A stretch of DNA of 64,000 bases from Methylophaga sp. 41_12_T18 (GTDB lineage: Bacteria > Pseudomonadota > Gammaproteobacteria > Nitrosococcales > Methylophagaceae): the NCBI GenBank assembly GCA_002163115.1, contig MAAI01000030.1, positions 1 to 64,000 of the forward strand, read 5' to 3'. The notes under the pieces are model-generated. The model saw only the letters and a list, made by a program, of their open reading frames with translations, ran no database searches and was not told the origin of the DNA. The translations under genes were made by a program, and so were the position numbers. Positions 6,957-41,017 of the stretch are shown in pieces. Numbering within the stretch: the stretch's first letter is position 1; the number at the start of each line of letters is the position of its first letter.

Positions 6957-7676
6957 ATGGACTCGACAGAACGACATGTATTTAATCATTTACAGACTCG
7001 TAACTTCAGTTCAATTGAATATGAACCCGATGGCAACATACCTCCAGACTTCCTTGTTGATGGTAAAGTAGCTATCGAGGTTCGCAGGCTAAATCAACAT
7101 CACTTTTCTCAAAATAATATAAAAGGCTTAGAAGAAGTTGCCATCCCACTTTGGCAAAGAGTAACAAACTTCATTGAACACTTCAGCCCTCCAATAGATG
7201 AGGAGAGTTGGTTTGTGAACTTCACATTTTCTAGGCCAGTCCCAAAATGGAAAAAACTAGAACCCTTGCTTCAATCAGCTTTAGAACAATTTTGTAACTC
7301 ACCGATCAAAACTCCTACAGTATTAATACAAACACTAGGCATTCACCTGGAAGTCTTTCATAAGGCATCAAAAAAACATTCAACGATGTTTCTCATGGGT
7401 GCTTATATAGATAAGCAGTCCGGTGGGCTTGTATTATCTGAAATGGAAAAAAATATCATCCATTGCTCCGATGAAAAATCACTCAAAATAGCAAATTTTA
7501 AAAGTAACTATTATGAGTGGTGGCTAATATTAGTTGATCATATTGGCTACGGATTAGATGAATTAAATATATCTCAGTTCAATGAATATGTAACCATCAA
7601 ACATTCGTGGGACAAGATCATTATTATCGACCCACTAAATGAAAATATTTGGTTTGAAATAGAAAATAAAAAGTAA
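6957..7676 (+). CDS. Hypothetical protein, possible PD-(D/E)xK-type nuclease fold
   Basis: A 239-residue protein I do not recognise. Near the N-terminus, PPDFLVDGKVAIEVRRLN has the look of a restriction-endonuclease-like core (acidic residue, turn, then E-x-R in place of D/E-x-K), similar to uncharacterised nuclease-like families. The rest is rich in Trp and charged residues, with no signal peptide or membrane segment. It is visibly more AT-rich than hemB-aroE just upstream and is followed by a dispersed-type repeat, which suggests acquisition by transfer. The nuclease idea rests on one short motif. Confidence 0.5.
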   Translation: MDSTERHVFNHLQTRNFSSIEYEPDGNIPPDFLVDGKVAIEVRRLNQHHFSQNNIKGLEEVAIPLWQRVTNFIEHFSPPIDEESWFVNFTFSRPVPKWKKLEPLLQSALEQFCNSPIKTPTVLIQTLGIHLEVFHKASKKHSTMFLMGAYIDKQSGGLVLSEMEKNIIHCSDEKSLKIANFKSNYYEWWLILVDHIGYGLDELNISQFNEYVTIKHSWDKIIIIDPLNENIWFEIENKK

Positions 7677-7703
7677 CTTAAAGTTCTATATCTTCATAAA
7701 TCA

Positions 7704-7985
7704 CCCCATAAAGTCCTTAATGAGCAGCCGAGCATCGAAAAACCGTTTGGAGCAAGCTCAACGAGTGTCTGAGCGTAGCGACAAATTTGTCAGGAACAAA
7801 TTTGGATGCAGGAAGCGCCCGTAGGGTAAGTGACATGGATGTCACGAATCAGTTTTCTCGTTGAGCCCAAACTGATTGAGAAGCACAGGGAACCCGTAGG
7901 GAAAGTATGGGCTGACCTTTTCTTTGGTTCCGTTTCTTTTGGCCACGCAAAAGAAATGAACGCCCAGCGGCAGCGTACCAACAAT
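7704..7985. repeat. Dispersed-type intergenic repeat
   Basis: This stretch is richer in GC than its surroundings and carries no credible gene. Read on the minus strand it contains the block TTTCTTTTGCGTGGCCAAAA followed by GAAACGGAACCAAAGAAAAG, later CCTACGGG twice, and GCTACGCTCAGACACTCG. From memory, this resembles a family of intergenic elements scattered through many gammaproteobacterial genomes and often miscalled as small proteins. A palindrome GTGACATGGATGTCAC lies near 7830. Short ORFs here are shadows. Confidence 0.6.
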
Positions 7986-7991
7986 AAGAGT

Positions 7992-8546
7992 TTAACTTCT
8001 AACTTTTCTACGAATACCTAACAAACCAACTAAAGCCGGGGTAAATAACCAAACTGCTGCCGGAATAGGAACAGCCGAAACTTGGCTCCACTGCACATAA
8101 GTATCATGAATATAGCTCGTCGTTTGAGTAACATACCCCGCCAATACAGATGGGTATGGGGTTCCCAATTCAACACTATAAAATTCAACTCGGTTGGAGA
8201 TTAAACTAATCTCATAAGGCGTTGCTAAGGTACATGCATTGTCATAACTACAACCTCTAGTTAATTGTGCATTGGCATCCCAAACTACAAACTCTGCATC
8301 CGTACTTAAAATTAATGCCTTCAGTGCTTCAGATGCAGATTCAGCAAAAGCAATATCATACAAAGATAGCGAATTAGCTAACCAACTCCCCCCATCAAAG
8401 CTGGCATTCCAAAAAGAGCCATCGATTTCGACATTGTCTATACCAACAACTTCACCAGCCACTGTATTCAGTGTTGCTGCAGACGCTGGCAGCATCATCA
8501 CTGAAGCTACAACAATTAAACCCATCCGTAGTATCTTGTTCAACAT
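7992..8546 (-). CDS. VPLPA/PEP-CTERM sorting-domain secreted protein
   Basis: A 184-residue exported protein. The signal peptide is residues 1-23 (ending in LPASA). The C-terminus has a VPIPAAVWLFTPALVGLLG segment followed by the basic tail IRRKVRS. That is the three-part PEP-CTERM arrangement in its VPLPA form, recognised by an exosortase that removes the tail during export. The body has two Cys residues and no known domain. The exosortase is not in this window. A second protein with nearly the same tail is at 30511-31320. Function unknown. Confidence 0.85.
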   Translation of the reverse strand: MLNKILRMGLIVVASVMMLPASAATLNTVAGEVVGIDNVEIDGSFWNASFDGGSWLANSLSLYDIAFAESASEALKALILSTDAEFVVWDANAQLTRGCSYDNACTLATPYEISLISNRVEFYSVELGTPYPSVLAGYVTQTTSYIHDTYVQWSQVSAVPIPAAVWLFTPALVGLLGIRRKVRS

Positions 8547-8749
8547 ATCCCTATTCCTAATTATCCTAAAACCACTATCGCTAACTCAATTGAAAAACAG
8601 CGAATAAGGGAAGGATACAGAGCAAATAACTCTATTACGCTATGAATTAATCCTGAAACAAAAAAGCAGTGCTGCAATAAAAAACATATAGAACAAGAAG
8701 CTAGCACCAGCCCTCTATTTACCTCAGTAATACTAGGCTCATTCTCTTG

Positions 8750-8778
8750 TTAACATGCAAATAATTATCATTTACAAT
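8750..8778 (+). promoter_or_regulatory. Sigma-70 promoter with Fur box in the spacer (EAL gene)
   Basis: TTAACA (8750-8755) and TACAAT (8773-8778) are separated by exactly 17 bases and each matches five of six consensus positions. The spacer holds TGCAAATAATTATCA (8756-8770). This matches 12 of the 14 defined positions of the 7-1-7 Fur consensus TGATAATnATTATCA. Fur bound here would block RNA polymerase, so expression should rise under iron limitation. Confidence 0.65.
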
Positions 8779-8800
8779 ACTACCCTTATCAATTTAAGCG

Positions 8801-9646
8801 ATGCCCACACCATGCCTTGCAGTTATTTTGACAAAGGTCGTCAAAGACCTAACTCAGCACCACATGTTCAAAGCCCAAATCAATTATCCACTTCAACTTT
8901 ACTGGATACTTATGTCGCCTAAACAATTATTACCTGCGACATTTCTAATTGATTTAATTGAAAACCAGCGCTTCGGTGTTGAGTATCAACCTATCATCGA
9001 TGTTAATAGCCAAGAAGTTTATGCCTATGAATGTTTGTCACGATTTTTTGATGCAGACAATAAGTCGATCAGACCTGACTTAGTTTTTTCATCGTTACAT
9101 GACAGTCCATTAAGCCTTTTTCAAGTCGAGTTTCAGCAAAAGAAACTCCAACTGGGCCATGCACCTAATAATCAACATATCTTTGTAAACTTAGATCAAG
9201 ACTCTTACTTCTCTTGCAATGTTGAAGCTGAAAACAATCCATTTTTACAATTATTTAATGGTTTTAAACAAGATAATCTAACGGTTGAACTCATTGAAAA
9301 CTCAGAAATTAATGATGCCATTATGAGTTTGGCGATGATTGATTCATTAGCTAAAAACAATATCAATACGGCGATTGATGATGTTTGTAATCCCAACTCG
9401 ATGATTTCGACTTCAGTATTACAACTGGTTAACTATATAAAGCTTGATAAAGAAGTTGTTCAAAATAAACATGATCAAAGCTTTCAGCAGCTGGTGAAGT
9501 TTATTATTGATTATGCCCACGCCACCAATAAAAAAATAGTGTTAGAAGGTGTAGAAACCGATGAAGACTTAGCATTTGCTAAACAATTAAACTGCGACTT
9601 TGTGCAAGGCTTTTTGTATCGACCACAATTCATTAATGTGACGTAA
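8801..9646 (+). CDS. EAL-domain protein with altered loop 6 (c-di-GMP phosphodiesterase or receptor)
   Basis: A stand-alone EAL domain of 281 residues if it starts at 8801; ATG 8912 (MSPKQLL, preceded by GGATACTT) is an equally possible start. Many metal and catalytic positions are kept: Glu77 in YECLSRF, Asn130 in VNLD, Glu163 in VELIE, Asp193/Asp194, Lys214 in IKLD, Glu249 in LEGVET and Gln269 in QGFLYRP. Loop 6, normally DFGTG/DFGSG, reads DVCNP (194-198), which usually impairs turnover. It may therefore bind c-di-GMP without efficient hydrolysis. The promoter carries a Fur-box match. Confidence 0.8.
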   Translation: MPTPCLAVILTKVVKDLTQHHMFKAQINYPLQLYWILMSPKQLLPATFLIDLIENQRFGVEYQPIIDVNSQEVYAYECLSRFFDADNKSIRPDLVFSSLHDSPLSLFQVEFQQKKLQLGHAPNNQHIFVNLDQDSYFSCNVEAENNPFLQLFNGFKQDNLTVELIENSEINDAIMSLAMIDSLAKNNINTAIDDVCNPNSMISTSVLQLVNYIKLDKEVVQNKHDQSFQQLVKFIIDYAHATNKKIVLEGVETDEDLAFAKQLNCDFVQGFLYRPQFINVT

Positions 9647-23576: not shown

Positions 23577-24347
23577 CTAGTTAATAATACCTTTAAGCTT
23601 CAATGCTTCTATAGTTAACTGTCTTCGAAGTGCTAGGTCAGACTTTGCTTTCACCTTAATATAGTTGGCAAACAACCATACTTTACCTGCAACTTCCACA
23701 TAGCCTACATACCAACCATGTTCTCCTTGCCAACCTGTTTTAGCCCAAACTTTATAATCAGGTGTGTCCTCAACCAACATAATTTCTTTTAGCGTTTTAA
23801 AATGATTGGCTGCTATTGGTAACTCTTCTAAATAAACCTTCCTCAAAAAATTTATTTGCTGTCTAGGAGATACCCGTAAATCTCCTTCTAACCAAAAAGT
23901 AGAGATATCATCGCCAACTTTCCGATTGCCATAGTCAAAAAGATTTAAATATTTTTGATAAGTCGGTTTACCAATTTTCACAGCGAAGCGTTGATAACAC
24001 CAGACGCATGACAAAGAAAATGCCGTTGCTAAAGTTTGATCAGAGTTCCAAGGTTCATATTGCCTGCTAACGCCATCCCACTTTATAATTTCAACCTGAT
24101 TTTTAATGATTCCCTCTTGTAGAGCAATCAACGTATTCGGAATTTTAAAGGTGGATGCAGGTATATTCGCCCACGTCACTTTTTTAGCATTATGCTGATA
24201 TTCAACACTGCCACTGAGCGAAGAAATCAGTAATACACCGTCTATACCAGCCGTGTCATAAAGCGTATCAATGCCATCATTATTAGCTGATAACGCTGAT
24301 GAAACGAGCAATAGCAAAATGGTGTTAACAAATATCTTTCTGAACAT
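23577..24347 (-). CDS. Class D (OXA-type) beta-lactamase
   Basis: A periplasmic serine beta-lactamase of 256 residues with a signal peptide ending near SSALSA. Family motifs are complete: the nucleophile in PASTFKIPN, where the Lys is normally carbamylated; S-x-V as SCV; FDYGN; the omega-loop FWLEGDLRVSPRQQ; and AKTGW. The start was moved to ATG 24347 because GGGGATAT sits just upstream and the signal peptide then begins MFRKIF. It has no mobile element nearby and shares the AT content of its neighbours, so it looks resident. Two Cys residues flank the S-x-V motif. The spectrum cannot be told from sequence. Confidence 0.92.
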   Translation of the reverse strand: MFRKIFVNTILLLLVSSALSANNDGIDTLYDTAGIDGVLLISSLSGSVEYQHNAKKVTWANIPASTFKIPNTLIALQEGIIKNQVEIIKWDGVSRQYEPWNSDQTLATAFSLSCVWCYQRFAVKIGKPTYQKYLNLFDYGNRKVGDDISTFWLEGDLRVSPRQQINFLRKVYLEELPIAANHFKTLKEIMLVEDTPDYKVWAKTGWQGEHGWYVGYVEVAGKVWLFANYIKVKAKSDLALRRQLTIEALKLKGIIN

Positions 24348-24549
24348 ATATCCCCAAGGTGTATTATTTTCATTCGCGATCACTATAGTATTTCTAACTA
24401 TAGATTATTCAAAATTTATATCGTTAATTTTACTCAGACTTAACAACCAACTTGCTCATTTTTAACCCAAGTAATATATATGCAATCAGGCTTTGCCAAT
24501 CACACATACTGCCGTTATGCTGACAGTAATTAAAACTAAGGAGTGATTC

Positions 24550-30510: not shown

Positions 30511-31320
30511 TTAAGCTTGTTTAATATTACGTCTACGTAAGCCCATAAAACCAACTAAAGCAGGTGTTAACAACCACAGTGCTGCTGGTACTGGTACAGC
30601 GGCTACATCGGCAGTAACGTAAGCTTCGTCATTTACACATGCCATCGTTATATAAGTACTAAGTCTACCGCCTTCACCTTCACTAGGGTCAAAAATACTA
30701 AGAAGGCTTAAATCAAAACCACCTTCCAAGACATTATTATCACCACCGTTATTACTCCAACTACCTTGAAAAGTAGCTAATACATCATTGCCCTTCATTT
30801 TATATGTTTCAGTAACATGCTTTGGAGCATAGTCATTGTCATAAATGTTTGCGCCTTCCCACTCATCACCCTGCAACAAAGAAAAGTTGGCAATATCGCC
30901 AACGATGCTATCTAAACGAATAGCATATTGAAATCCTGATGAATCGGTTGTTGGGTTGGTTGCAGCAACGCCAAAGTCTGTAACAGCAATAGCAATATCA
31001 CTTAGAAAGATAGGATTTCCTCTTCCTGAACCTGTTTGTCCACCATCTAATATTTCGCCACCAATCAAACCAAATTGAAATTGGCCACCGACAATACTCG
31101 TACCTAGGTAGTTAATATCCCAGCGGTCACCACCACTTGCATCGTTATATTCTTGAAAGTCATTACTTCTATCAAAGGTAGTCCATTTACTTGAACCTTC
31201 AGCGCCTTCAGTATCCCACTGATATTCTGAAGTTGAAATACTGCCATCTACGGTTGCAGCTTGAGCAAAAAATGGCGTCAAACTGAATAACAATGTCGAT
31301 ATTAAAGCTAATGATTTCAC
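30511..31320 (-). CDS. VPLPA/PEP-CTERM sorting-domain secreted protein
   Basis: 269 residues. The start was moved to GTG 31320, because GGGGATA lies eight bases upstream and the product then begins with a normal signal peptide ending in FFAQA. The mature part (WDTEGAEGSSKWTTFDRS, FQFGLIGGEILDGG, DIAIAVTDFG) looks like a beta-sandwich of secreted PEP-CTERM proteins. The C-terminus has the VPVPAALWLLTPALVGFMG segment plus the basic RRRNIKQA tail recognised by exosortase. The tail is near-identical to that of the protein at 7992-8546 (LWLLTPALVGFMG against VWLFTPALVGLLG). Function unknown; surface or matrix role inferred. Confidence 0.85.
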   Translation of the reverse strand: MKSLALISTLLFSLTPFFAQAATVDGSISTSEYQWDTEGAEGSSKWTTFDRSNDFQEYNDASGGDRWDINYLGTSIVGGQFQFGLIGGEILDGGQTGSGRGNPIFLSDIAIAVTDFGVAATNPTTDSSGFQYAIRLDSIVGDIANFSLLQGDEWEGANIYDNDYAPKHVTETYKMKGNDVLATFQGSWSNNGGDNNVLEGGFDLSLLSIFDPSEGEGGRLSTYITMACVNDEAYVTADVAAVPVPAALWLLTPALVGFMGLRRRNIKQA

Positions 31321-31442
31321 TACGAATATCCCCGAACAATTTATGAATGTTGGGCGCAGTTTAATGGCTTGCAATAACCTCGTATATTGTACCTTGGTAC
31401 AAGGTGACTGAATTAACTACTAATTTTAACAAAAACACCAAT

Positions 31443-40954: not shown

Positions 40955-40983
40955 TTGATCTATTTAATAGTAATCATTATCAT
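40955..40983 (+). promoter_or_regulatory. Promoter and Fur box of bfd
   Basis: TTGATC (40955-40960) and TATCAT (40978-40983) are 17 bases apart. TAGTAATCATTATCA (40968-40982) matches 12 of 14 defined positions of the 7-1-7 Fur consensus and covers the -10. Iron repression of bfd is known in enterics and pseudomonads, so the assignment fits. Confidence 0.75.
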
Positions 40984-41017
40984 TTACATCAACATTAATA
41001 AACTTAAACCCATTAAT

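Follow-up and report, generated by a model that had tools for sequence, protein, structure and literature searches.

The window (the whole stretch of 64,000 nucleotides analysed here, from Methylophaga sp. 41_12_T18) carries a gene for a stand-alone EAL-domain protein, whose promoter hexamers are overlapped by a predicted Fur box (Table 1). The original prediction had described a promoter TTAACA-17-TACAAT with a Fur-like match inside its spacer, and these positions were recovered in the sequence: the two hexamers (8750-8778) are 17 nt apart, and TGCAAATAATTATCA at 8756-8770 lies within the spacer and agrees with TGATAATnATTATCA at 12 of 14 positions. The longer 21-bp form of the Fur motif, AAATGATAATnATTATCATTT, is matched at 17 of 20 positions and covers parts of both promoter elements. 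The intergenic region that contains the box has a G+C content of 36%.

Table 1. Positions of the features discussed (strand as assigned; a point marks a feature given no strand).
Feature	Position	Strand	Basis
-35-like hexamer TTAACA	8750-8755	+	Sequence; TTTACA/TTCACA-like hexamer at the equivalent position in many Colwelliaceae orthologues
Predicted Fur box ACATGCAAATAATTATCATTT	8753-8773	.	Within promoter spacer; 21-mer match, matrix, conservation before orthologues
-10-like hexamer TACAAT	8773-8778	+	Sequence; TACAAT/TACAGT at the equivalent position in many Colwelliaceae orthologues
5' leader with in-frame ATG 8801	8779-8911	+	Starts of relatives; ~77 nt longer than in most orthologues
Stand-alone EAL-domain protein, predicted c-di-GMP phosphodiesterase, SO2039-type family, 244 aa	8912-9646	+	Pfam, family, model
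Fur box before bfd (internal yardstick)	40965-40985	.	21-mer match and matrix; downstream protein with Fer2_BFD

Two in-frame start codons were considered. The upstream one, ATG 8801, was rejected because the relatives begin at the codon matching ATG 8912; on this alignment the latter is more probably the start, and the region between promoter and gene would thus be mostly 5' leader. A structured leader or riboswitch was also rejected, as Rfam gave no match apart from one irrelevant hit below threshold.

The protein is made up of a single EAL domain (Pfam EAL, 125.4 bits). Its AlphaFold model (pLDDT 93, pTM 0.90) found EAL phosphodiesterase domains as the best PDB matches, for example 3n3t and YahA. 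The Thiobacillus denitrificans structures 3n3t/2r6o and YahA (4lj3) have the fold and the catalytic residues in common with the 244-aa protein, at about 22–24% identity. The family alignment (A1) shows no variation at residues E40, N93, E126, D156, D157, K177, E212, E215 and Q232, and the Shewanella members keep all of them too.

Fur-like sites in the window and in the genome

The specificity of the match was assessed with a short and a long form of the motif. The 15-mer, allowing up to 3 mismatches, occurs 84 times in the window against ~48 expected; since this is weak evidence on its own, the claim of a Fur box rests on the 21-mer and on matrix scores. With at most 3 mismatches, AAATGATAATnATTATCATTT is confined to two places in the window, the EAL promoter and the site before bfd, where dinucleotide shuffles gave an expectation of 0.00. 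Over the 2.43-Mb assembly the same search returned 12 sites, and the reversed-pattern control none. Sites other than these two adjoin genes for two TonB receptors, two ECF sigma factors, a flavodoxin, an enterochelin esterase and an Fe2+ transport protein; further genes at such sites encode a Fer4_5 protein, a cupredoxin and a MATE protein. The genome holds seven EAL matches at E<=1e-10, and the gene at 8912 is the sole EAL gene among those identified at the 12 Fur-like sites. Fur itself is encoded in the genome (PF01475, 151.7 bits). As a separate observation, a cupredoxin gene (plastocyanin/azurin family; locus L112, site at ~1501) adjoins a strong Fur site with 1 mismatch, and a swap of copper for iron under iron shortage is possible there.

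A weight matrix was trained on ten genomic sites, mostly at iron genes, with the EAL and bfd sites left out and the window alone as background. On this scale the bfd site scored 21.63 bits and the EAL site 21.60 bits, compared with 22.7–30.0 bits for the training sites and 9.83 bits for the next-best non-overlapping site of the window. The original prediction that the match before the EAL gene equals the one before bfd in strength holds by matrix score, as does its proposed check with a matrix built from the organism's own iron genes (within a background limited to the window).

The EAL family and the box before its genes

A search of genome contigs yielded about 60 confident relatives, 41–74% identical, in Colwellia, Thalassotalea, Shewanella, Marinomonas, Moritella, Neptuniibacter, Oceanisphaera, Nitrosomonas-type MAGs, Marinobacterium and Chitinimonas. 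They form a family of single-domain proteins of ~245 aa, with E-values below 1e-36 for its members versus 1e-22 for the best generic EAL protein of the relatives. In Shewanella a member is present in 66 of 117 genomes, most of these proteins being 34–42% identical to the 244-aa protein.

The best match of the whole locus was a Fur-like box directly before the EAL gene for 23 of the 26 Colwelliaceae and 6 of the 8 Marinomonas, and for all 7 Neptuniibacter and all 3 close Shewanella; among 28 more distant Shewanella loci examined, 25 showed this as well. In many Colwelliaceae the same promoter-like letters flank it. The box is weak in some Marinomonas and Shewanella, and was not found in Marinobacterium, Chitinimonas or at loci L065 and L124. 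The genes next to the EAL gene vary by lineage, so it is the EAL gene, and none of its neighbours, that the box travels with. The idea that iron genes are constant neighbours was rejected, none being common to the loci; the exceptions are fur in two Shewanella and a cluster in Nitrosomonas-type genomes. In the former (L132, 796-2220, and L151, the latter confirmed by tblastn) the EAL gene lies directly beside a fur-family gene. In the latter (L056, 103-4726; L057, 73-4726) a Fur-like box is followed by co-directional genes for an FEA1-related lipoprotein, a multicopper oxidase and, third, the EAL protein, with gaps of ~130–275 nt; this row looks like iron uptake genes ending in a gene for a c-di-GMP enzyme.

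These data bear on two other readings of the box. A functionless match arising by chance might be expected where the intergenic DNA is AT-rich and a 15-mer allowed 3 mismatches has many matches, as is the case here, but the zero expectation for the 21-mer, the matrix score equal to that of bfd and the conservation of the box across genera with unrelated flanks make it hardly conceivable. Alternatively, the box could serve the divergent PEP-CTERM-type gene on the minus strand (7992-8546), which shares the intergenic region and starts ~200 nt from the site. The box is centred in the plus-strand promoter, however, and many genomes have it before the EAL gene although the adjoining genes are different ones, so that control of the divergent gene instead of the EAL gene is very improbable. 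The protein of 7992-8546 has no Pfam match; its C-terminus, like that of 30511-31374 (also minus), is of the form VP(I/V)PAA(L/V)WL...GLRRR, typical of PEP-CTERM/VPLPA-CTERM sorting signals. Elsewhere on the minus strand, the product of 23577-24383 resembles a class D beta-lactamase by eye.

The distribution of the family also informs on the origin of the gene. A search of 56 other genomes from the taxonomic family of the window found no relative at E<=1e-25, and vertical inheritance within that family was rejected on this ground; over a spread of 369 genomes of the class, only 2 others had one. The tree places the window gene within a clade of 36 members, most of them from Colwelliaceae (support 100/95). 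A sister genome (G001) keeps the order nitrilase-hemB-aroE and dinB-HxlR-OYE-asmA, and between aroE and dinB it has neither the EAL gene nor its two left neighbours. The G+C content of the EAL gene is 34% versus 40.5% for the window. Judged by these sequence comparisons, the EAL gene is horizontally acquired and a recent arrival in this lineage, and its promoter was probably acquired together with it. The spot between aroE and dinB is variable: in the sister genome (locus L161, 5836-7039) it holds an unrelated 242-aa ORF, whereas the window has three other genes at 6957-9646.

SO2039 and the predicted activity

A candidate member described in the literature is SO2039 of Shewanella oneidensis MR-1, likened to the window gene by description. 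In 24 of 28 Shewanella loci the EAL gene is preceded by a co-directional slt; the sltY gene of S. oneidensis is SO2040 (PMC5786531), and SO2039 adjoins SO2040 by locus number. Synteny, description and family together suggest that the Shewanella family gene is SO2039. This gene encodes an EAL protein placed in an iron-acquisition module with a Fur motif and is induced ~3–5 fold on iron depletion (PMC2667191); its expression is also higher early in surface growth (PMC3409153). A 2008 paper on the S. oneidensis fur mutant makes no mention of SO2039 in its main text. The contexts differ: the slt-linked Shewanella members lie in the order slt-EAL-moxR, while the window gene occupies the acquired spot, with aroE and dinB on either side.

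The main reservation about the activity concerns loop 6. In canonical EAL enzymes this loop reads DDFG[AT]GYSS and is needed for dimerisation and activity (PMC7290235). YahA has the canonical DDFGTGY; in the 244-aa protein it is replaced by DDVCNPNSM, and the Shewanella members have DDxGAPHSM, so that activity or dimerisation could differ. The noncanonical loop lowers our confidence in hydrolysis. Since the divergence extends across the family, including the presumed SO2039 type, it was treated as a family feature and not as proof of inactivity. The protein could nevertheless be under Fur control and yet only sense c-di-GMP, or be a dead enzyme, signalling in either case by contact with partners and not by hydrolysis. 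Such a role would fit the family-specific loop (DDVCNPxSM, or DDxGAPHSM in Shewanella), but none of the catalytic and metal-binding residues varies, which is unusual in degenerate EAL proteins, active phosphodiesterases are among the nearest structures by fold, and SO2039 has been aligned among functionally characterised phosphodiesterases (PMC7290235). We therefore regard a sensor or dead enzyme as unlikely. The original prediction had left open whether iron would set the breakdown or the sensing of c-di-GMP; the invariant residues and the place of SO2039 among characterised enzymes favour breakdown, and sensing is the less favoured half of that proposal.

Iron and c-di-GMP

Overall, the data argue with good confidence for an acquired single-gene unit, in which a sigma-70 promoter with a Fur box in its spacer drives a soluble EAL phosphodiesterase that is raised in iron shortage. 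Control by Fur, the core of the original prediction, is supported by the bfd-equal score, by the box before nearly all relatives with differing neighbours and by the published induction of SO2039. From its place in the spacer, the box is predicted to mediate repression by iron-loaded Fur and release in iron shortage, in agreement with SO2039. With enough iron, Fe(II)-Fur would sit on the 17-bp spacer and block RNA polymerase. In iron shortage, Fur would leave and the EAL enzyme would be made; it would hydrolyse c-di-GMP to pGpG, and the lower c-di-GMP level would tilt the cell to motility and off attachment. In this scheme we infer the binding of Fur to the box, the phosphodiesterase activity of the 244-aa protein and the behavioural outcome. 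Targets for such a signal exist in the window, as it encodes GGDEF cyclases and, from a reading of its ORFs, flagellar motor genes.

Regulation of this kind is already known from Vibrio cholerae and from the iron response of SO2039. In V. cholerae, Fur is reported to activate vieSAB (EAL) and to repress cdgD (GGDEF), both described as independent of iron (PMC7641913). Direct control of genes for c-di-GMP enzymes by Fur is also what we propose for the window gene; the box position in the window predicts repression of a phosphodiesterase, in contrast to the activation given there for vieSAB, and the two are likened by description. In Pseudomonas aeruginosa, IsmP-ImcA raises c-di-GMP with iron, and iron shortage lowers it (PMC10904736). 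The direction is the same as in the proposed unit, but IsmP-ImcA works post-translationally, has no Fur box and relies on a CHASE4 iron sensor that acts on a cyclase. The present analysis contributes breadth and portability, and extends the finding with confidence to the Methylophaga lineage; a search of part of the literature found no description of a family-wide link to Fur for these EAL proteins.

To our knowledge, the effects of iron on c-di-GMP levels have usually been studied species by species. With somewhat more in favour than against, the gene may be a portable unit connecting iron to c-di-GMP that spreads as a single gene among unrelated proteobacteria, each host gaining c-di-GMP breakdown under iron limitation, and the family-specific loop 6 may tune the activity. 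A Fur box kept in many marine genera, although the gene neighbourhoods vary, points to a direct transcriptional route, shared among them, by which iron shortage would lower c-di-GMP, and a line on SO2039 in a 2009 microarray table becomes a general prediction.
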